The position numbers were made by a program, and so were the translations under genes. From Litorihabitans aurantiacus (lineage in GTDB: Bacteria > Actinomycetota > Actinomycetes > Actinomycetales > Beutenbergiaceae), in NCBI RefSeq assembly GCF_030161595.1, contig NZ_BSUM01000001.1, positions 3,410,001 to 3,474,000 on the forward strand: DNA of 64,000 bases. Reading direction: 5' to 3'. The notes under the pieces were generated by a model. That model searched no databases and was not told the DNA's origin. It was given only the letters and a program-made list of their open reading frames with translations. Below are positions 51,892 to 63,990 of the stretch, piece by piece (the stretch's first letter is position 1; each line of letters starts with the position of its first letter).

Positions 51892-54599
51892 ATGTCACGC
51901 AGCCCCCGTCCGGCCTTCCGGACCACGGTGGCGCTCGCCGTCGCGGCACCGCTGGTGCTCACGCTGGCGGTCGGTGCCGGAGCCGGCACGTCGCCACCGC
52001 CGCAGGACGAGCTCCCGGGCGCCCCGGCGCAGCCCGAGCTGTCGAGCCGGGTGAAGGCGATCATCGACGTCGACGGCCTGCAGTTCCGCGACCTCGACGG
52101 CAGCGGTGACCTCTCGCCGTACGAGGACTGGCGCCTGCCGGCGTCCGAGCGCGCGAGCGACCTGGTGGAGCGCATGGACCTCGCCGAGAAGGCCGGGCTC
52201 ATGCTGATCGACACGCTCAACGCCACGTGCACCGACGGCGTGCGCGGCACGCTGCCGGAGAGCGCGGACAACTTCGTGAACGAGCAGCACATGAAGCGCT
52301 TCGTGTTCCGCAACGTCGTCACGGGCCCGGAGGCCGCGGTGTGCGGCGACCCCGGGGCCGGTTTCCAGGCGACGACGTCGGTCACGCCCGGCGAGGCGGC
52401 GACCTTCACCAACTCCGTCCAGGAGCTGAGCGAGGCCACCCGCTGGGGCATCCCCGCGCTGATGAAGTCCAACGCGCGCAACCACATCGACCCCGATGCA
52501 CGGGCGGGCATCAACGAGTCCGCCGGCGCCTTCACCGCCTTCCCCAAGGAGGCGGGCATCGCCGCCGCCGCGCTCGGGCGCGAGGCGGCGGGCACGGGGA
52601 GGACCCCACGACCGGTGACATGACGGCCGTGTCGGACTTCGCCTCGGTCATGGGTGAGGAGTGGGCCTCGATGGGTCTGCGCGGCATGTACGGCTACATG
52701 GCCGACCTCTCGACCGAGCCGCGCTGGTACCGCACGCACGAGACGTTCACCGAGGACGCCGCGCACGCCGCCTCGATCATGGAGACGCTCGTGTCGACGC
52801 TGCAGGGACCCGTCCCCGCCGACGGCAGCACGAACGGTCTCGCGCTCTCGCCGGAGACGGACGTCGCCCTCACGCTCAAGCACTTCCCCGGCGGCGGCCC
52901 GCAGGAGCTGGGGCTCGACCCGCACTACGCGTTCGGCAAGGCCCAGGTCTACCCGGGCGGGTTCTTCGAGCAGCACATGCTGCCGTTCGAGGCCGCGATC
53001 GACGCCGGGGTGTCGGCGATCATGCCGTACTACGGCGTCCCGGTGGACGTGCCCGTCGTCGGCGGGGAGGGGAACTACCCCCTGACCGGGTTCGCGTTCT
53101 CGGACTCCATCGTCAACGGCCTGCTGCGCGACCAGCTCGGCTTCACCGGCTACGTCAACTCCGACACCGGCATCATCAACGACCGCGCGTGGGGCCTCGA
53201 GGGCGCGACCGTGCCCGAGCGCGTGGCCGCGGCCGTCAACGGCGGCACCGACACCCTGTCGGGCTTCAACGACGCCGGCACCATCACCGACCTCGTCGAC
53301 GCCGGGCTCGTGACGCCCGAGCGCATCGACCTGGCGGCGCAGCGCCTGCTCGAGCCGATGTTCCTCATGGGGCTGTTCGAGAACCCGTACGTCGACCCCG
53401 CCGTGGCGGACGCGACCATCGGCTCGGACGAGCACCGCGAGGTCGGCCTCGAGCTGCAGCGCGAGTCGCTCGTGCTGCTGGAGAACGAGGAGACGCCCGA
53501 CGGCCCCGTGCTGCCGATCGCCGACGGCTCCGACGTCTACATCCTCGGCGACTTCAACGCCGAGACGGTGGCCGCCCGCGGCTACGGCGTCACGAACGGC
53601 AACGTCGACGAGGGCCAGGAGCGCCCGAGCGCGGCCGACAGCGACTACGTGCTGATCTCCATGTCGGCGAGCGCGCGGGGCGGCGACTACGTCAGCGACA
53701 GCCCCGAGCTGGGCCTCAACCCCGAGTTCGGACCCAACCCGAGTGCGATCGAGGGCATCCCGAACCTCGACGGCGAGAGCCTGTGGGGCGAGGCCGACGC
53801 GTGCGTGCACAACGCCGCGGGCGGCGACGTCCCGGCGTGCACCGACAGCGGCCTCCGGTTCGGCGGCGCGTACCCGTGGGAGGCGAGCACGCTCGACTTC
53901 ACCGGGATGCAGGCGGCGCAGTCGTGGGAGGTCGTGCCCTCCCTCGACACGATCCAGCAGGTCATGGCCGAGGCCGAGGACCCCAGCAAGGTGATCCTGC
54001 ACGTGTACTTCCGCCAGCCCTACGTGCTGGACGAGGCGAGCGGGCTGCGCGACGCCGGTGCGATCCTCGCCGGTTTCGGCATGAGCGACACCGCGCTCCT
54101 CGACGTGCTCTCCGGCGAGGCGGCCCCGACCGGCCGCATGCCGTTCGCGCTCGCCGGGACGCCCGAGGCGATCCTCGAGCAGCAGAGCGACACCCCGGGC
54201 TACGACGAGACGACCGACGGGGCGCTCTACCCGTTCGGGTACGGGCTCACGTACGCCGACGCCGAGCCGGAGCCGGAGCCGGAGCCGACGCCCGACCCGA
54301 CCACGGACCCGACCGACCCTGAACCGACGTCGACGGACCCGACCGACCCGGCCCCGACGTCGAGCGACCCGACCGACCCCGCCCCGACGTCGAGCGACCC
54401 GACCGACCCCGCCCCGACGTCCACCGACCCCGGCACGCCGGGCGAGGAGTCGTCCACAGGCGACGCCGCACCGGGCGACCGCGGTCCGCTCGCCAGCACG
54501 GGGGCGTCCGTCACCGCGGCGGTGATCGCGGCGCTCGCGGCGGTGGGCGTCGGGACGGCGCTCGTGCTGCGACGCCGTCGGGCCCTGACTCAGGAGTGA
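51892..54599 (+). CDS. Wall-anchored GH3 beta-glycosidase (frameshifted)
   Basis: Read across one lost G at 52596-52599, this is about 903 aa. A signal peptide (VALAVAAPLVLTLAVGAGAG) precedes a family 3 glycoside hydrolase: LKHFPGGGPQELGLDPH in the first barrel, and TGYVNSDTGIINDRAWG with the presumed Asp nucleophile. The second alpha/beta domain includes SLVLLENEETPDGPVLPI and DAGAILAGFG. The C-terminus has Pro/Thr/Ser/Asp repeats of about 10-11 residues, then the sorting signal LASTG, a helix and RRRR. It is expected on the cell wall, releasing glucose- or xylose-type residues from oligosaccharides. The exact sugar is unknown. Confidence 0.85.
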
Positions 54600-55045: not shown

Positions 55046-56361
55046 TCAGGCCGGGTGCAGCTCCGTGTCGCGTCCCTCGAGGCGCTCGCGCGTGGACCAC
55101 AGCCCCGCCGAGGGGGTGGAGATGTAGAAGACGCGCTCGCCGTCGGGCATCGTGTTCCAGCCGTCCTGCATGACGGCCGGGTCGTAGCGCCGCAGCGCCT
55201 CGGCCACGTCCATGTAGCCGTACCCGACCGACTCGATCTCGTCCCGGGAGAGGTGGCCCGGGGCGTAGGTGATGCGGAAGCGGCCCTCGCTCGAGCCGTG
55301 CACGAGGTGCGCGGTCCCGTGCGGGATCTCCTGCATGTCCACCTGCGTCGCGTACAGCGCGAGCACCTCGCGCTGCGAGAGGTAGCCGTAGCGGCGGATC
55401 AAGGCGTCGACCTCGGGCTGCTCGCCGAACCGCTCCACGCCGGGCGCGATCACGAGCAGCTCGCCGCCGTCGGCGATCGCCATCCGCGTGCGGTAGACCG
55501 CCTTGTTCGCCACCCAGGTGGCGCGGAACTCGTCCGCCTGCATCACCGCGACGATCTTCGGCGCACCCTCGTCGAACAGCGTGATGTTCTGCGCGCGCGA
55601 GGCGCGGGCGGCGTCGTAGTAGGTCTCGACGTCGTCCCCGACGAACACACCGGTGTGCGCGAGGTTTCCTCGTCGTCGTAGTCCATGACGACCTGGAGGT
55701 ACACGTCCGGCAGGTCACCCAGGAAGTGCTCCTCGGCGTAGTTGAAGCACGAGCGCACGGGGGTGAGCAGATTGCCCAGGTTGTTCTCGATCCCGTAGAC
55801 GGCCGAGGCCATGTGCGCGGCCCCGAGCAGCCGCTTGCCGCCGAGGCCGATGAAGTAGTTCTTGTTGTGGTTGGCGAAGCCGAGCACCTCGTGCGGCACC
55901 ACGTGCCCGACGTTGATGATGAGGTCCCACTCCTGCGTCACCAGCATCGTGTTGAGGTCGATCGGCATCTCCCAGTCGACCGCCCCGCCGGTGCGCTCGC
56001 GCACCACCTCGGCCGGGACCGTGCCGACGTTCGTGACGCCGTTCTTCCAGTCGTGCGCGTGGATGCGCTCGTGCGGGATCGACCCGAACATCCACGTGTT
56101 GTCCTCGGGCGTGTGCGGCACGTGCTGGCCGAGCGTCGGGATCACGTGCACCTCCGCCCCCTGCGCCGTCAGCGCGTGGAACAGGTGCTCGGTCATCCAT
56201 CCCGTGCCGGAGTGGGCGCGCGTGAGGTCCGGCGGGAGCAGCAGCACGCGGCGGTAGGCCGCGATGCCCAACCGCTCCTGCGCCTCCTGGAGCAGCCGGT
56301 CGCACATCGCCTCGATCTCGGGGCGCGAGAGGAACCGCGCCTCCTTGCTGAACCATGTCAT
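55046..56361 (-). CDS. LarA-superfamily nickel-dependent hydroxyacid racemase/epimerase (frameshifted)
   Basis: Read across one lost base at 55665-55667, this is about 439 aa. It matches lactate racemase LarA (DUF2088) at catalytic and cofactor positions: PDLTRAHSG (D45, R48), TLGQHVPHTPED (H80), VGHVVPHEVLGFANHNKNYF (H157, K167) and GAAHMAS (H183). In LarA a Lys ties the nickel-pincer cofactor and His residues do proton/hydride chemistry. Known homologues racemise lactate, malate or phenyllactate, or epimerise D-gluconate at C2. It is divergent from uxaC, 120 nt apart. With mannonate and gluconate genes alongside, a mannonate/gluconate 2-epimerase is the most attractive role. Cofactor genes larBCE are not in the window. 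Confidence 0.75.
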
Positions 56362-56426
56362 GGCCGCGACGCTAACCCGCGCCCCCGGCCGCGGGCCGCC
56401 GACGGGCGCGGATCGGTGCCCGTGGC

Positions 56427-56440
56427 GGCAAGCGCTGGCA
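56427..56440. promoter_or_regulatory. Possible operator in the larA-uxaC divergent region
   Basis: GGCAAGCGCTGGCA is an imperfect palindrome with a central GCGC, within the 120-nt region serving both directions. No regulator gene is adjacent, so this is only a candidate. Confidence 0.3.
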
Positions 56441-56481
56441 ACCGGGCGGTCCCGGCGCGGCCGACCGGTCACGATGGGCCG

Positions 56482-57915
56482 ATGAACGACCACCTGGTGC
56501 GGTCCCTCGACGTCGACGCCGACCGCCTGCTGCCCGTCCAGCCCGAGGTGCGCACCGTGGCGCGCGAGCTGTACGCCGCCACGAAGGACCTCCCGATCAT
56601 CTCGCCGCACAGCCACGTGCCCCCGCAGTGGCTCGTGGCGGACGAGCCGTTCACCGACCCCACCTCGCTGCTGCTCAGCCCCGACCACTACGTGCTGCGG
56701 ATGCTGCACGCCGGCGGCGCCGAGCTCGGCGACCTGGGCCGCGGTCCCGACGGACCCGTCCAGCTCGACGAGGCCGGGGCGCGCCGCGCCTGGCGGATCC
56801 TCTGCGAGAACTACCACCTGTTCCGCGGGACCCCCGTGAAGTACTGGTTCGACACCACCTTCGCCGAGGTCTTCGGGATCACCCAGGCCCCGAGCGCCGC
56901 GACGGCGGACGCGATCTACGACGAGATCGCCTCGGCCCTGACCCGCCCCGAGTTCCGCCCCCGCGCCCTGTTCGACCGCTTCGGCATCTCCGTGCTGGCC
57001 ACGACCGACGACCCGCTGGACGACCTCGCGCCGCACCGCGCGCTCGCGGCGGACCCCACGTTCACCGGTCGCGTGCTGCCGACGTTCCGCCCCGACCGCT
57101 TCCTCGAGCTCGCCCGCCCCGACTGGTCCGACCTCGTCGGGCAGCTGGCGCGCGTCTCCGACGTCGACACCGGCGACTACGCCGGCTACCTCGCCGCCAT
57201 CGAGGAACGCCGCCGCTACTTCAAGGAGCACGGCGCCGTCTCCTCCGACCACTCGCACGCCGACGCCGGCACGCAGCCCCTGGAGCACGCCGACGCCGAG
57301 CGCATCTACGCCGCCGCGCTCCGCGGCGAGGTCACGCGCGAGGAGGCCGACGCGTTCCGCCGCCACATGATGAGCGAGACGGCGCGGATGGCCACGCAGG
57401 ACGGCCTCGTCATGACGCTGCACCCCGCCGTCCGGCGCAACCACGACCCCGACAACCTGGCGCGCTTCGGCGCCGACGCGGGCTCCGACATCCCGATGGG
57501 CGTCGAGTTCACGCACGCGCTGCAGCCGCTGCTGGGCCGGTACGGCAACCACCCCGACCTCACGCTCGTCGTCTTCACGATCGACGAGACGGTCTACTCC
57601 CGCGAGCTCGCCCCCATGGCCGGCTTCTACCGCTCGATGCACGTGGGCGTGCCGTGGTGGTTCATCGACGCGCCCGAGGCGATCCGCCGCTTCCGCGGCG
57701 CCGTGACCGAGACGGCCGGCTTCTACCGGACCTCGGGGTTCATCGACGACACCCGCGCCTTCCTGTCCATCCCCACGCGCCACGACATGTCCCGCCGCCT
57801 CGACGCGGGCTACCTCGCCGAGCTGGTGGCCACCCACCGCCTCAGCCTCGACGAGGCGCTCGAGACCGCGCACGACCTCGTGACCACGATCCCGACGAAG
57901 GTGTTCAAGCTGTGA
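56482..57915 (+). CDS. uxaC: Glucuronate isomerase UxaC
   Basis: This converts D-glucuronate to D-fructuronate (and D-galacturonate to D-tagaturonate). The protein is 477 aa, full family length. The amidohydrolase metal motif is SPHSHV (residues 41-46), and the family segments LHAGGAEL, NYHLFRGTPVKYWFD, LATTDDPLDDL, EFTHALQPLLGRYGN, VPWWFIDAPEAIRRFR and IPTRHDMSRR are all present. The last codons overlap the next gene (GTGA), so it is coupled to the mannonate/fructuronate oxidoreductase. It is the first gene of the uronate operon, divergent from the LarA-type gene. Confidence 0.95.
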   Translation: MNDHLVRSLDVDADRLLPVQPEVRTVARELYAATKDLPIISPHSHVPPQWLVADEPFTDPTSLLLSPDHYVLRMLHAGGAELGDLGRGPDGPVQLDEAGARRAWRILCENYHLFRGTPVKYWFDTTFAEVFGITQAPSAATADAIYDEIASALTRPEFRPRALFDRFGISVLATTDDPLDDLAPHRALAADPTFTGRVLPTFRPDRFLELARPDWSDLVGQLARVSDVDTGDYAGYLAAIEERRRYFKEHGAVSSDHSHADAGTQPLEHADAERIYAAALRGEVTREEADAFRRHMMSETARMATQDGLVMTLHPAVRRNHDPDNLARFGADAGSDIPMGVEFTHALQPLLGRYGNHPDLTLVVFTIDETVYSRELAPMAGFYRSMHVGVPWWFIDAPEAIRRFRGAVTETAGFYRTSGFIDDTRAFLSIPTRHDMSRRLDAGYLAELVATHRLSLDEALETAHDLVTTIPTKVFKL

Positions 57916-59363
57916 GCGCTCCGACCCCGCAGGCCGAGCAGGCCGAGCAAGCCCGGCAGACCGAGGCGGCCGGAGGGACCGAGCCGCCCCGCCTCGCCCG
58001 CACGCCCGACGCCGCGGCCGCCCCGGTCCGCATCGTGCACCTCGGCCTCGGCAACTTCTTCCGGGCCCACCAGGCCTGGTACACGATGCGCGCCGGCGAC
58101 GGCTGGGGCATCGCCGCCTTCACCGGGCGCCGTCCCGACGTCGCGCGCACCCTGGCCCCGCAGGACGGCCTGTACACGCTGGTCGAGCGCGGTCCCGACG
58201 GCGACGACGTCGGCGTGGTCACCTCGCTCAGCGCGGTCCACGCCGCCGGCGACCAGGCGGCCTGGCTCGGCTACCTGCGCGACCCCGCCGTCGCCGTCGT
58301 GACCTCGACCGTGACCGAGGCCGGCTACCTGCGCGGCCACGACGGCGGGCTCGACGCCGCGCACCCGGACGTCGCGGCCGATGTCGCCACGCTGCGGCGC
58401 GACCCCGTCGCGCCCGTGACGACCGTGCCGGCCAAGATCGTGGCCGGGCTGCTCGCGCGGCAGGGCGCCGACGCCGGGCCGATCACGGTCCTGCCGTGCG
58501 ACAACCTGCCGGGCAACGGCGCCGTCGTCGGCCGCGTGGTGCGCGACCTGGCCGCGCTGGTCGACCCCGACCTGCTGCCCTGGATCGCCGAGAACGTCGA
58601 CTTCGCGAGCTCGATGGTCGACCGCATCACGCCCGACGTCGCACCCGGCACCGCCGAGATCGTCGAGCGCGAGCTCGGCGTCGTCGACGCCTCGCCCGTG
58701 GTCACCGAGCCGTTCTCGCAGTGGGTGGTCGCGGGCTCGTTCCCGGCCGGACGGCCGCGCTGGGAGGACGCCGGCGTCGAGCTGGTGGACGACGTCGAGC
58801 CCTACGAGCGCCGCAAGCTGCTCCTGCTCAACGGCGCCCACTCGCTCATGGCCTACGCCGGCCCGATCCTCGGGCACGAGACGGTCGACGCCGCCTTCGC
58901 GGACGAGCGCGTGCGCGCGTGGGTCGAGCAGCTGTGGGACGACGCCGAGACCGACCTCGACGAGCGCGTGCGCGCGAGGACGCCCGCCTACCGGCAGGCG
59001 CTGCGCGAGCGGTTCGGCAACGTCCGGATGAGCGACGTGCTGGGCCGCATCGCCGCCGACGGGTCGCAGAAGCTCCCGGTCCGGCACGTGCCGGTGCTGC
59101 TCGCGCGGCGGAGCGCTGGTGAGGTGTCCGCGGGCGCCGTCGTCGGCGTCGCGGCCTGGATCGCGCACCTGCGCGGCGCCGGGGTGCCGGTCCGCGACGT
59201 CGCCGCCGACCTCTGGCGCGAGCGGGCGGCGGGCGAGGACGAGGGTGCGGTGGCCCGTATCCTGGCGTCGCTGGCCCCCGAGCTGGCGGAGGATGCGGGG
59301 CTGCCCGAGGTGCACCGCGCCGTCCTGGCGCAGTTGCGCGCGTTCGAGCAACCGGAGGTCTGA
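57912..59363 (+). CDS. uxuB: Mannitol-dehydrogenase-family oxidoreductase, probable fructuronate reductase
   Basis: The 483-aa product has a disordered Ala/Gln/Glu N-terminus of about 45 residues, then a Rossmann motif (IVHLGLGNFFRAHQAWY). Family segments are LPCDNLPGNG, VDFASSMVDRITPDV and the catalytic KLLLLNGAHSLMAYAG (Lys...Asn...His). UxuB-type enzymes reduce D-fructuronate to D-mannonate with NADH. The GTG start is fixed by the GTGA overlap with uxaC. Mannitol 2-dehydrogenase or arabinitol dehydrogenase are alternatives by family, but the coupling to uxaC strongly favours the uronate role. Confidence 0.87.
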   Translation: MSAPTPQAEQAEQARQTEAAGGTEPPRLARTPDAAAAPVRIVHLGLGNFFRAHQAWYTMRAGDGWGIAAFTGRRPDVARTLAPQDGLYTLVERGPDGDDVGVVTSLSAVHAAGDQAAWLGYLRDPAVAVVTSTVTEAGYLRGHDGGLDAAHPDVAADVATLRRDPVAPVTTVPAKIVAGLLARQGADAGPITVLPCDNLPGNGAVVGRVVRDLAALVDPDLLPWIAENVDFASSMVDRITPDVAPGTAEIVERELGVVDASPVVTEPFSQWVVAGSFPAGRPRWEDAGVELVDDVEPYERRKLLLLNGAHSLMAYAGPILGHETVDAAFADERVRAWVEQLWDDAETDLDERVRARTPAYRQALRERFGNVRMSDVLGRIAADGSQKLPVRHVPVLLARRSAGEVSAGAVVGVAAWIAHLRGAGVPVRDVAADLWRERAAGEDEGAVARILASLAPELAEDAGLPEVHRAVLAQLRAFEQPEV

Positions 59364-59365
59364 GC

Positions 59366-60883
59366 ATGGGCGTGGTCATCGGGATCGACGTCGGGACCAC
59401 GACCACGAAAGTGCTGGCGCTCGACCCCGAGGACGCCGACCACCGCTGGCGCGCCGTCGCGCTGCGCGAGTACCGGCTGGTCGAGCCGGCGCCGCGACAC
59501 CAGGTGCAGGACCCGCGCACCGTGCTGGGCGCGGTGGACGACGCGCTCGCGGAGGTCGTGGCGGCCTGCACCGCCGCGGGGCGGACCGTCGACGTGCTCG
59601 GCGTGGGCACGGCGATGCACGGGCTCGTGGCGCTCGACGCCGAGCTGCGGCCGATCACGGACATCGTCACGTGGGCCGACACCCGGGCGCACGCCCAGGC
59701 CGCGCGCCTGCGCGCCGACGGTCGCGGCCTCGAGCTGCACCACCGCTCCGGCACCCCCGTGCACCCCATGAGCCCGCTGGTGAAGCTCGCGTGGTTCACG
59801 CAGGAGGACGCCGACACCGCCGCCGCGGCGCACCGCTGGATCGGGTTGAAGGACCTGGTGCTGCTGCACCTGACGGGACGGCTCGTGACCGAGCTGTCCA
59901 CGGCGTCGTGCTCCGGTCTCCTGGACCTGTCCACGCGCACCTGGGCGCCCGAGCACCTCGACATCGCCGGCGTGCGTGCCGAGCAGCTCCCGCCCGTGCT
60001 CCCGACGACGGCGCTGCTCGAGCTCTCGCCCGCCGCGGCCGCGCGCTCGGGCCTGCCTGCCGGGACCCCGGTCAACACGGGCGCCACCGACGGGCCGCTC
60101 GGCAATCTCGGCACCGGCGCGATCGCGCCCGGCATCGCCGGCCTCTCGATGGGCACGAGCGGCGCGGTGCGCACGGTGGTGCGCGAGCCCGTGCTGGACG
60201 ACCACGGCCGACTGTTCTGCTACGCGCTGACCGACGACGCCTGGGTCGTGGGCGCGCCCATGAGCAACGGCGGCGTCGTCGCCCGCTGGGCCGGCGAGGT
60301 CTACGCCTCGCAGGTGCCCGCCGGGCCGGAGCGCGACGCGCACGTGATGGCGATGGCCGCGCGCGTGCCGGCCGGCAGCGACGGCCTCGTGATGCTGCCC
60401 TACCTGCTGGGCGAGCGCGCGCCGCTGTGGGACCCGGAGCTCACGGGCTCCTTCCTCGGGGTGCGCCACGAGCACGGGCCCGACCACTTCGTCCGCGCGG
60501 CGATCGAGGGCGTGGCCGTGTCGATGGGCGGCCTGATCGAGGTGCTCGGTGGTGTCACACCGGTGGAGCAGGTGCGCTGCACCGGTGGCGTGTTCCAGGC
60601 GGAGGTCTGGCGCCGGGTGATGGCCGCCGCGATCGATCGCCCGCTCGTACCCACCGACGACGCCGAGGGCTCGGCGCTGGGCGGGGCCGCGCTGGCGCTG
60701 TACGCGCTCGGGCGCGCGGACTCGCTCGCGGGTGCGCTGGAGCTCCTGAGTCCGGCCGACGGCGTGGCCGACCCGATCGAGGTCGACGCGGCCGACCGCG
60801 AGGTCTACCGCGGGATGCGCCGTCGGACGGCCGCGATGCTCGAGGCGTACGACGGCGTGCGCGCCTACCTCGCCGGGGACTGA
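59366..60883 (+). CDS. FGGY-family carbohydrate kinase, probable gluconokinase
   Basis: The product is 505 aa, a full FGGY kinase. The ATP-binding phosphate motif is GIDVGTTTTK (residues 6-15), and a second is near DGPLGNLGTGAI and MGTSGAVR. MHGLVALD and HPMSPLVKLAWF resemble the gluconokinase (GntK, FGGY) subgroup more than xylulokinases. MLPYLLGERAPLWDP is normal. It would phosphorylate D-gluconate to 6-phosphogluconate. It begins 3 nt after the oxidoreductase stop, so the three genes uxaC, uxuB and kinase are one operon. Confidence 0.82.
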   Translation: MGVVIGIDVGTTTTKVLALDPEDADHRWRAVALREYRLVEPAPRHQVQDPRTVLGAVDDALAEVVAACTAAGRTVDVLGVGTAMHGLVALDAELRPITDIVTWADTRAHAQAARLRADGRGLELHHRSGTPVHPMSPLVKLAWFTQEDADTAAAAHRWIGLKDLVLLHLTGRLVTELSTASCSGLLDLSTRTWAPEHLDIAGVRAEQLPPVLPTTALLELSPAAAARSGLPAGTPVNTGATDGPLGNLGTGAIAPGIAGLSMGTSGAVRTVVREPVLDDHGRLFCYALTDDAWVVGAPMSNGGVVARWAGEVYASQVPAGPERDAHVMAMAARVPAGSDGLVMLPYLLGERAPLWDPELTGSFLGVRHEHGPDHFVRAAIEGVAVSMGGLIEVLGGVTPVEQVRCTGGVFQAEVWRRVMAAAIDRPLVPTDDAEGSALGGAALALYALGRADSLAGALELLSPADGVADPIEVDAADREVYRGMRRRTAAMLEAYDGVRAYLAGD

Positions 60884-61037
60884 GCGGCGCGTCCCGGCGG
60901 CACTGTCACCACCGGGTCGCTCGCGCAGGGAGGCGCGGCCCGGGGGCACACCGGCGTGTCGAGGCCGACACGCCGCGGTCGGGCGCGGGACCGCGGTGCT
61001 CGGCCTCCCTGGGCGAGGCGATGCGACGACGAACGAC

Positions 61038-61067
61038 GGCGGCCGGGAGGATCTCCTCCCGGCCGCC
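61038..61067. terminator. Terminator between the kinase and TRAP genes
   Basis: GGCGGCCGGGAGGA (61038-61051) pairs with TCCTCCCGGCCGCC (61054-61067) around TC. It can end both convergent transcripts. Confidence 0.8.
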
Positions 61068-61096
61068 GCCGTCTCTCGTCCTGAGGGTGCCGCCCG

Positions 61097-62404
61097 CTAC
61101 AGCAGCCCGAGCGCGGTCGGCAGCCAGAGCGAGAGCTGCGGGATGAACACGACGAGGAACAGCATCGCGACGATCGCGAACAGGAACGGCCACAGCTTCG
61201 TGATGACCGGTTCGATGCGCAGGTTCGCCAGGCGGGACCCGACGAACAGCACGTTGCCGACAGGCGGCGTGATCACCCCGAGCGACAGGTTCATCACGAC
61301 CATCGCGCCGAAGTGCACCGGGTCGATGCCGAACTCCGTCGCGATCGGCAGGAAGATCGGGACGAAGATCAGGATCGCCGGGGTCGGGTCCATGAACGTC
61401 CCGACGAGGATGAGCACGAGCATCATGAGGATGAGGATGAGCACGCGCGAGTCGGTCAGCCCCAGCACGGTCTCGGAGATGAGGTCCGGGATCCGGGCGT
61501 AGGCCATCGTGAAGGACAGCGACGTCGAGACGCCCACGAGCAGCATCACGATCGCCGTCGTGCGACCGGCGTTGATGAGGATGTCCGGGAGGTCGCCGAC
61601 CTTGATGCTGCGGTAGCAGGCCGACAGCACGAGGCAGTAGACGACGGCGATGGCTGCGGACTCCGTCGCGGTGAAGAACCCGCCGAGGATGCCGCCCACG
61701 ACCACGACGATCATCAGGAGCGACGGGACGGCGCGGCCGATGACGCGCAGACCGTCGGAGAACGAGATCCGGTCCTCCGACCGCAGCCGGCCGGGCTGGC
61801 GGCGGCTGTAGAGGTAGACCACGACCATGCAGGCCAGGGCCCACATGACGCCGGGGATCGCGCCGGCCATGAAGAGCGCGGCGATCGAGGTGCTCGAGAC
61901 CAGCGAGTACACGATGAACGTGTTCGACGGCGGGATGAGCATCCCCGCCGGGGCGGAGGCGATGTTGACTGCCGCCGCGAACGGACGGTCGTAGCCCTCC
62001 TTGACCATGCGGTTGTTCATCACGCTGCCGACGGCGGCGGCCGCGGCGACGGCGGCGCCCGAGACCGCACCGAACATCGTGTTGGCCACGACGTTCGTCT
62101 GCGCGAGCGACGCGGGTGCGCGCCCGGTGAGCACCTTGGCGGCGTCCACGAGGCGGCTGGCGATCCCGCCGTTGTTCATGATCACGCCCGCCAGCACGAA
62201 CAGGGGTATCGCGAGCAGCGGGAAGGAGTTGATGCCGGTGAAGATGCGCTGCGCGCTGACCAGCGCGGCCTGCTCCGGCCCGAGGATCGGGACGGCGGCC
62301 AGGAAGGAGGCGACGCCGATGACGATCGCGATGGGGACCGAGGAGACGATCCCGATGATGATGCAGAACAGCAGGATGAGGCCGACGAGGGCTGCGGGAT
62401 CCAT
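61097..62404 (-). CDS. TRAP transporter large permease (DctM type)
   Basis: The product is 435 aa with about 12 helices. DctM features are PLLAIPLFVLAGVIMNNGGI, ANTMFGAVSGAAVAAAAAVGS, ASAPAGMLIPPSNTFIVYSL, GTFMDPTPAILIFVPIFLP and MNLSLGVITPPVGNVLFVG. It forms the sodium-driven channel of a tripartite organic-acid importer. The start at 62404 overlaps the small-permease stop by one base (TGATG), which defines it despite a long open frame upstream. It is the last gene of the TRAP operon. Confidence 0.92.
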   Translation of the reverse strand: MDPAALVGLILLFCIIIGIVSSVPIAIVIGVASFLAAVPILGPEQAALVSAQRIFTGINSFPLLAIPLFVLAGVIMNNGGIASRLVDAAKVLTGRAPASLAQTNVVANTMFGAVSGAAVAAAAAVGSVMNNRMVKEGYDRPFAAAVNIASAPAGMLIPPSNTFIVYSLVSSTSIAALFMAGAIPGVMWALACMVVVYLYSRRQPGRLRSEDRISFSDGLRVIGRAVPSLLMIVVVVGGILGGFFTATESAAIAVVYCLVLSACYRSIKVGDLPDILINAGRTTAIVMLLVGVSTSLSFTMAYARIPDLISETVLGLTDSRVLILILMMLVLILVGTFMDPTPAILIFVPIFLPIATEFGIDPVHFGAMVVMNLSLGVITPPVGNVLFVGSRLANLRIEPVITKLWPFLFAIVAMLFLVVFIPQLSLWLPTALGLL

Positions 62405-62952
62405 CACGCCTCCTTGCGCGGGGTGAGCGGTTCGACCGTGGCGGCCACGACCTCGGACTCGTCCTCGAGCTCGACGTACGGCCCGTGGGTCCCGCGGAGC
62501 AGACCGGCGACGTAGTACAGCGAGTAGAAGGCGATGAGCGTGCCGGCCACGGGGAGGGCGAGGTACATCTGCCCGAGGGTGAACGGCAGCGCCGAGAGGT
62601 TCTGCAGCCACGCGTTGCTCGCGGCCCGCCCGCCGCCCCAGATGAGCACGACGACGGTGAAGGCGAGCGTGATCAGCTGGACCACGACGGCGAGCGCGCG
62701 CTCGCTGCGCCCGGGGAGCTTGCGCGCCACGAACTCGACGGCGATGTGGCCGCGCTCGCCGAACACGAAGGCGGCGGCGAACAGCCCGAGCCACACGAAG
62801 GTGAGGCGGGCACCCTCGTCGGTCCAGGACGCCGGCGCCCCGAGCACCTGGCGGCTGACGATCTGCCAGACGACGATGAGCACGAGCATGGCGAACAGCA
62901 CCACGACGATCCAGTACAGGGCCCTGTCGAGGGCCTTCTTGACGCTATCCAC
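62404..62952 (-). CDS. TRAP transporter small permease (DctQ type)
   Basis: The product is 182 aa with four hydrophobic segments: WIVVVLFAMLVLIVVWQIVSRQVLG, ARLTFVWLGLFAAAFVFG, VVVQLITLAFTVVVLIWGG and LPVAGTLIAFYSLYYVAGLL. This, with WTDEGARLTFVW, is the DctQ pattern. It bridges the large permease and the binding protein. It overlaps dctM by one base and lies 33 nt after the binding-protein gene. Confidence 0.9.
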   Translation of the reverse strand: MDSVKKALDRALYWIVVVLFAMLVLIVVWQIVSRQVLGAPASWTDEGARLTFVWLGLFAAAFVFGERGHIAVEFVARKLPGRSERALAVVVQLITLAFTVVVLIWGGGRAASNAWLQNLSALPFTLGQMYLALPVAGTLIAFYSLYYVAGLLRGTHGPYVELEDESEVVAATVEPLTPRKEA

Positions 62953-62985
62953 GCGTCACCTCCGTGGTGGTGGGGGTCGGGGCGG

Positions 62986-63990
62986 TCACGGCTGCGCCGC
63001 CGCTCGCGCGGCGTCGTAGAGCGCGCGCTGGGAGTCGGTCGTGATGAAGGTGTCGGCCATCGCCTCGAGCGGCTCGGCGAACGCGGCGTCGTCGACCTCG
63101 GAGAAGGTCGCCCCGCCCGCCGTCGCCCCCTCGATGGCCTCCTGCGTGGCCTCGGCCCAGAGCTGCGTGTGCTCCTCGTGGGCCGCCGTGAACGCGGCGT
63201 CGAACGCCTCGCGGTCGGCCGGCGTCATGCTCGCCAGCAGGTCGGAGTTGATGATGATGTAGTCGAGGCCGACGAGGTGGTTGGTGTAGCTCCAGTACGG
63301 TGCCACCTCGAAGTGGCGCTGCGTGAAGTAGGAGACCTCGTTGTTCTCGGCGGCGTCCACGACACCGGACTGCAGCCCGGTGTAGAGCTCGCCGTAGGCG
63401 AGCGGGGTGCCGATCCCGCCGAGCGCGCGCGCCATGGCGAGCTGGAGGTCGGACTCCTGCACCCGGATCTGCTTGCCGGCCAGGTCGGCCGGGGTCTCGA
63501 TCGGCTCGTCGGTGTAGACCGAGCGCGCCCCCTGCGTGAAGCCGCCGAGGACCGTGATGTTGTTGCGCTCCTCGAGCGAGGAGAACAGGTCCCCGGTGAT
63601 CTCGGGGTCGTGGATCACCCGCATCTGGTGCTCGACGTCGTCGAACACGCGCGGCAGGTTGAACACCACGAAGTCGGGGTTGAGGTTCTCGAGCTGGGGC
63701 CCCGAGACCACGGCCATGTCGACCGAGCCGTCGGAGACGAGCTGGAGCGCCTCGGCCTGGGCGCCGAGGGTCTCGTTGGGGTAGATGTCGGTGTCGTAGC
63801 CCTCGGTGGTCTCGGCCAGGGCCTCGCCCAGGTGGTCGAGCGCGATGTAGGAGGGGTGGGCCTCGCTCTGGTTGAGCGCGATGCGCAGCGGGCGGCCCTC
63901 GCCGTCGGCGAAGCCCGGGCCGCACGCGGCCAGGAGCAGCGTCGCGGTGGTCGCGCCGGCGACGACCGCGGTGATCGTCCGGTTCCTCAT
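62986..63990 (-). CDS. TRAP transporter substrate-binding lipoprotein (DctP type)
   Basis: The 334-aa product has a lipoprotein signal (ATTATLLLAACGPG) and a DctP fold: LRIALNQSEAHPSYIALDHL, the segment VSDGSVDMAVVSGPQLEN, KQIRVQESDLQLAMARALGG (carrying the conserved Arg that grips the carboxylate), and YTGLQSGVVDAAENNEVSYF. TRAP binders of this group take up sugar acids such as glucuronate, galacturonate or gluconate. It is encoded first in the TRAP operon and faces the uxaC-uxuB-kinase operon, so a uronate or aldonate is the expected ligand. The upstream promoter lies beyond the window. Confidence 0.92.
   Translation of the reverse strand: MRNRTITAVVAGATTATLLLAACGPGFADGEGRPLRIALNQSEAHPSYIALDHLGEALAETTEGYDTDIYPNETLGAQAEALQLVSDGSVDMAVVSGPQLENLNPDFVVFNLPRVFDDVEHQMRVIHDPEITGDLFSSLEERNNITVLGGFTQGARSVYTDEPIETPADLAGKQIRVQESDLQLAMARALGGIGTPLAYGELYTGLQSGVVDAAENNEVSYFTQRHFEVAPYWSYTNHLVGLDYIIINSDLLASMTPADREAFDAAFTAAHEEHTQLWAEATQEAIEGATAGGATFSEVDDAAFAEPLEAMADTFITTDSQRALYDAARAAAQP

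Follow-up and report, generated by a model that had tools for sequence, protein, structure and literature searches.

A putative hexuronate-catabolism locus of Litorihabitans aurantiacus with a group-18 LarA epimerase whose cofactor may be metallated without LarC

Genes at the locus

In the window, that is, the whole stretch of 64,000 nucleotides of Litorihabitans aurantiacus DNA that was analysed, a LarA-type gene is located on the reverse strand (55046-56361, -). It is recognized by profile NF052594 as a putative hexonate epimerase of LarAH group 18, and its reading frame is shifted. Three genes run divergently from it: uxaC for a glucuronate/uronate isomerase (56482-57915, +; NF002794 with 534 bits at a cut-off of 387, and Pfam UxaC), a uxuB-like gene for a polyol/hexonate dehydrogenase with N- and C-terminal Mannitol_dh domains (57912-59363, +), whose start overlaps the uxaC stop, and a gene for an FGGY sugar kinase (59366-60883, +; Pfam FGGY_N/FGGY_C). 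Context suggests that the dehydrogenase is a fructuronate reductase; its scores lie below every equivalog cut-off (251 of 600 bits for D-arabinitol dehydrogenase, 212 of 603 for fructuronate reductase NF011611). The kinase is likewise gluconokinase-like by context, with TIGR01314 (gntK_FGGY) as top match at 360 bits, below the equivalog cut-off of 648.6. On the opposite strand there is a TRAP importer, composed of the large permease DctM (61097-62407, -; PF06808, 371 bits), the small permease DctQ (62404-62952, -; PF04290, 97 bits) and the solute-binding protein DctP (62986-63990, -; NF037995, 180 bits). The profile matches confirm the gene list of the first-pass annotation (LarA-type gene, uxaC, uxuB-like gene, FGGY kinase and TRAP importer) together with its positions.

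A larE-larB pair (genome C1:3474145-3475726) lies 0.15-1.7 kb past the right end of the window. It shares the strand (-) of the TRAP genes, and the DctP gene is 0.15 kb downstream of it. The two genes overlap by 8 bases, and their products score 270 bits (LarB) and 278 bits (LarE). At the left edge the window begins, as judged by eye, with the end of an apparent molybdenum-cofactor cluster (L248, genome C1:3402000-3411000) that contains MoaA-, MoeA- and ThiF-like genes and a binding protein.

LarC in genomes with a group-18 LarA

To our knowledge, LarC is the only known nickel inserter (cyclometallase) of the pincer nucleotide, and LarB, LarE and LarC are described as all being needed. In the known cofactor path, LarB and LarE act before LarC inserts nickel (PMC9283937, PMC11796402). 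The first-pass annotation had named larBCE as the set to look for in the complete genome; larB and larE are indeed present, and LarC was not found in this genome by a PF01969 profile search.

Among 119 relatives, 15 (the own genome counted) carry a group-18 LarA. LarB and LarE exceed their curated cut-offs in all 15, and the PF01969 search found LarC in none of them. In the other genomes with LarB and LarE, which have no group-18 LarA, LarC was present in 18 of 18; this comparison ignores genome relatedness, the relatives not being independent, and its Fisher value is descriptive. Fourteen of the LarC-less carriers belong to one family and one to another; LarC is present in a sister from the same family that carries a different LarA. 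It is unlikely that LarC was overlooked, since the same search recovered it in the 18 other relatives, split forms included, and in six control genomes such as Thermotoga maritima; E. coli came out without LarC. As LarC is missing in the relatives as well, we regard its absence as a property of the subfamily and not as a refutation of the epimerase reading. In one relative with a single-contig genome (G004), the larB gene beside larE is split over two frames (L054 16274-16932), by a frameshift or a sequencing error.

A scan of GTDB genomes yielded 244 relatives, of which the best 80 come from Actinomycetota, Acidobacteriota, Planctomycetota, Verrucomicrobiota, Kiritimatiellota, Lentisphaerota, Armatimonadota and Latescibacterota. 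In 34 of 50 named genomes with a group-18 LarA, spread over about seven phyla, LarC was not found; the metagenome assemblies in this set may be incomplete or misbinned. Both LarB and LarE are present in 30 of these 34, including the closed genome of Terriglobus roseus DSM 18391, and the four exceptions are metagenome assemblies. The remaining 16 genomes bear a LarC label. LarC is full-length in 13 of them, and the subfamily is thus not wholly devoid of it; the other three have fragments only. The fragment in Micropruina glycogenica (L233 8990-9880) covers positions 5-252 of 411 and then runs into a stop, with no second part within 9 kb in any frame. A Methylacidiphilales assembly has positions 285-409, and in a Lentisphaerae assembly positions 3-56 are joined directly to 354-403 (L237 7700-7970), the ~300 residues between these first 54 and last 50 being gone; this mini-LarC may be a remnant. 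That LarC serves a second LarA in such genomes was discarded, as none of the 16 regions has a second LarA beside LarC.

On the LarA tree, which was rooted against distant LarAs on long branches, there are 10 changes of the LarC label, of which well-supported branches force at least six, and LarC is kept on the deepest branches. Repeated loss of LarC is the simplest reading of this pattern. We found no mention of LarC scarcity in group 18 in the literature consulted, although the 2012 paper on the route discussed below or the papers on LarC may contain one.

LarE of the LarC-less genomes keeps its PP-loop and the three cysteines (CXXC-C), and LarB keeps its cysteine. In a LarE tree the proteins from LarC-less genomes interleave with those of LarC-bearing Actinomycetota, which rules out a separate LarE type. 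With LarE and LarB unaltered, these genomes would be expected to make the usual LarE product, with the change coming after the LarE step. The best reading of these sequence data is that the pincer cofactor of the group-18 subfamily is loaded without the help of LarC. Could an unlinked nickel insertase of unrelated origin, or else a nickel chaperone of general function, have taken over from LarC, the cofactor and the enzyme being otherwise ordinary? Unaltered LarB, LarE and cofactor-binding residues in the LarC-less genomes are consistent with such a substitute, and at least six LarC changes on the LarA tree are what one would expect if another factor did its job. On the other hand, a substitute would be needed in Actinomycetota, Acidobacteriota, Planctomycetota and Verrucomicrobiota alike, Granulicella and T. 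albidus have larA-larE-larB units that stand alone, and no extra conserved gene common to larA-larE-larB loci was found in place of LarC (in a clustering crowded by shadow ORFs). We consider a replaced LarC rather doubtful.

The route from hexuronate to 6-phosphogluconate

According to our proposal, the TRAP importer would take up hexuronate and UxaC would convert glucuronate to fructuronate, which the UxuB-like dehydrogenase, its substrate taken from context, would reduce to D-mannonate. The group-18 LarA-type enzyme would then epimerize D-mannonate at C2 to D-gluconate, its presumed product, and the FGGY kinase, again by context, would form 6-phosphogluconate, which would enter the pentose phosphate pathway through 6-phosphogluconate dehydrogenase (Gnd). 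The pincer cofactor of the epimerase would come from LarB and LarE, encoded beside the importer just outside the window.

The first-pass annotation had presented this route as new, a reading that we dropped because the idea is already in the literature. For Thermotoga, Rodionova et al. proposed in 2012, according to the account in PMC6978723, that mannonate is epimerized to gluconate, on which gluconokinase then acts, and within the LarA superfamily D-mannonate/D-gluconate epimerase activity has been shown for groups 19 and 20 (Desguin et al. 2020, PMC7583248), with mannonate epimerization measured for the T. maritima and Corynebacterium glutamicum enzymes. For group 18 the predicted substrate is a hexonate (PMC7583248), and gntE homologues were also noted in Acidobacterium and Terriglobus (Valk et al. 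2020, PMC6978723).

Linkage of larA with pathway genes is seen in relatives, where larA is found with the genes for UxaC, UxuB, gluconokinase and 6-phosphogluconate dehydrogenase and, in several phyla, with larE-larB. Gnd adjoins LarA or the cofactor genes in loci of Georgenia, Ornithinimicrobium, Kiritimatiellota and Lentisphaerota, and the T. roseus locus groups UxaC, UxaE, an SDR dehydrogenase, LarA, LarE and LarB. We take the linkage of gnd, uxaC and larE-larB as support for the route. In L. aurantiacus itself, Pgi stands beside LacI in the place that Gnd takes in the relatives. In three relatives (G013, G022 and G012; loci L055, L057 and L059) larA is found beside leuA, tens of kb from uxaC-gnd-larE-larB, which shows that linkage of the epimerase gene to the rest of the pathway is not obligatory.

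As the first-pass annotation stated, the window contains no uxuA, KDG kinase or aldolase gene; the genome does contain uxuA, an aldolase gene and a KDG-kinase-like gene. UxuA is encoded at C1:3215817-3216998, full-length and with 529 bits at a cut-off of 200, beside a GH2-like gene, which rules out its absence. The gene for a KDPG aldolase (242 bits, over the cut-off) and a KDG-kinase-like PfkB gene are neighbours (C1:280642-282432), with an IclR-type regulator beside the pair; for this PfkB protein the best KDG-kinase-type models stay below their cut-offs. With UxuA and KDPG aldolase in the same genome the classical branch is available, the argument from the window for a bypass of this branch fails, and the classical UxuA route may carry flux in this strain.

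The frameshift in larA bears on the same question. Alignment with Georgenia places the loss of one base near 55663-55672, and the two halves match NF052594 contiguously and without a gap (N-part 274 bits, positions 10-218; C-part 286 bits, positions 219-410). Close orthologues are uninterrupted in 14 of 14 cases, nearly all of them 438 amino acids long, and six score 582-592 bits against a curated cut-off of 500. By its profile matches, the window gene is a member of NF052594, LarAH group 18. The N-part shows 82-88% identity across the 15 carriers, the window's own included. A GH3 glycosidase gene (51928-54599) is also split over two frames, the profile match of its second part starting at position 98. 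Since a second gene is split in the same window, the larA frameshift is likely an assembly indel, while it may also be a real mutation.

Is larA a pseudogene in this strain, then, with glucuronate degraded via UxuA, KDG kinase and KDPG aldolase? The lost base and the genes of the classical branch would fit, whereas the split GH3 gene and a completeness of 95% suggest assembly indels, and over the N-part the gene is otherwise 82-88% identical to intact orthologues; on balance a pseudogene appears unlikely. Less probable still is a kinase-first order, in which mannonate would be phosphorylated and the LarA-type enzyme would turn 6-phosphomannonate into 6-phosphogluconate: this order has been shown in cell extracts of Lactobacillus suebicus, without gene assignment (PMC6978723), and the FGGY kinase is not a confirmed gluconokinase, but groups 19 and 20 act on free mannonate (PMC7583248) and the nearest structure is that of T. 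maritima GntE. The L. suebicus route, with mannonate kinase and 6-phosphomannonate 2-epimerase, likewise ties the isomerase pathway to 6-phosphogluconate, and its kinase acts before the epimerase, the reverse of the order proposed here (PMC6978723).

The cofactor site and its metal

An AlphaFold2 model of a group-18 LarA (pLDDT 88.3) has the LarA fold. Its nearest solved structure is 4nar, the apoprotein of T. maritima GntE (TM0442; Z 40.3 over 394 residues), and 9eia (Z 30.6) and 5huq (Z 28.1) also match. Together with NF052594, the model agrees with the hexonate-epimerase class to which the first-pass annotation had assigned the enzyme. The equivalents of D72, R75, H108, H174, K184, H200 and K298 are invariant in 38 of 38 group-18 sequences, and the motif with H174, K184 and H200 is present in all 80 sequences examined. 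The E-V/S loop and the alpha-11 W, which form the signature of groups 18-20 (PMC7583248), are represented by E158, V159 and W283, again invariant in 38 of 38. Group 18 stands out by its K184 loop, which reads NHNKNYF in place of SGGxK, and by five extra invariant histidines (50, 83, 153, 165 and 348 in L061 numbering). None of 14 other actinobacterial LarAs, which come from LarC-type genomes, has these histidines, and neither does T. maritima GntE. Four of the five lie at most five residues from the equivalents of D72/R75, H108, H174 and K184, from which we infer that they are near the cofactor; they are also kept in group-18 members with LarC.

Three known systems can be compared. The hexuronate locus of T. 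maritima with GntE2/LarAH20 (TM0442) resembles the present one, by the accounts in PMC6978723 and PMC7583248, in its proposed reaction and in having UxaC, UxuB or an equivalent, and gluconokinase. GntE2 shares the fold, the catalytic residues, the E-V/S loop and the alpha-11 W with group 18, whereas it is only 24% identical, its K184 loop is SGGLK, T. maritima has LarC, and the five extra histidines occur on the group-18 side only. GntE1/LarAH19 of C. glutamicum, for which G2E activity with a high Km was shown (PMC7583248), is actinobacterial like the enzyme discussed here, has an HEV loop as group 18 does, and its LarE/LarB partners are closely related. GntE1 and similar actinobacterial LarAs differ from group 18 in having the loop VFPHEVVGFSGGNK, and, unlike group 18, the GntE1-like LarAs have LarC in 11 of 12 of their genomes analysed here; their motif suggests that those in the relatives belong to group 19. 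L. plantarum LarA, finally, has the fold (5huq), the cofactor lysine and the nickel-ligand histidine in common with group 18. L. plantarum needs LarC, whereas most group-18 genomes are without it, and its LarE is sacrificial and lacks CXXC-C, in contrast to the LarE found here with a [4Fe-4S]-type motif (PMC9283937).

As the most likely mechanism, we hypothesize from these residues that P2TMN, the LarE product, would bind to group-18 LarA and be metallated in place, aided by the five subfamily-specific histidines. Group-18 LarA, LarB and LarE might then suffice, the histidine-rich cofactor site taking up nickel or another metal and LarC being dispensable, which we put forward tentatively. It is improbable that the LarE product works in group-18 LarA with a non-nickel metal or with no metal at all: the only known nickel-inserting step is missing, the K184 loop is altered and extra histidines are present, yet H200, the nickel ligand in L. 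plantarum LarA, is invariant throughout the sequences examined, and some group-18 members keep LarC. With somewhat more confidence than doubt, we read the locus as one for hexuronate catabolism via a group-18 LarA epimerase, whose LarB/LarE pincer cofactor would be metallated without LarC.

In several phyla, linkage with 6-phosphogluconate dehydrogenase lends support to the known route. If a common LarA subfamily mostly does without LarC, then either the metal-carbon bond can be formed in a second way, or the metal differs, or a new insertase is at work, and the three-gene set of larA, larE and larB would be a simpler source of active epimerase for biotechnology.
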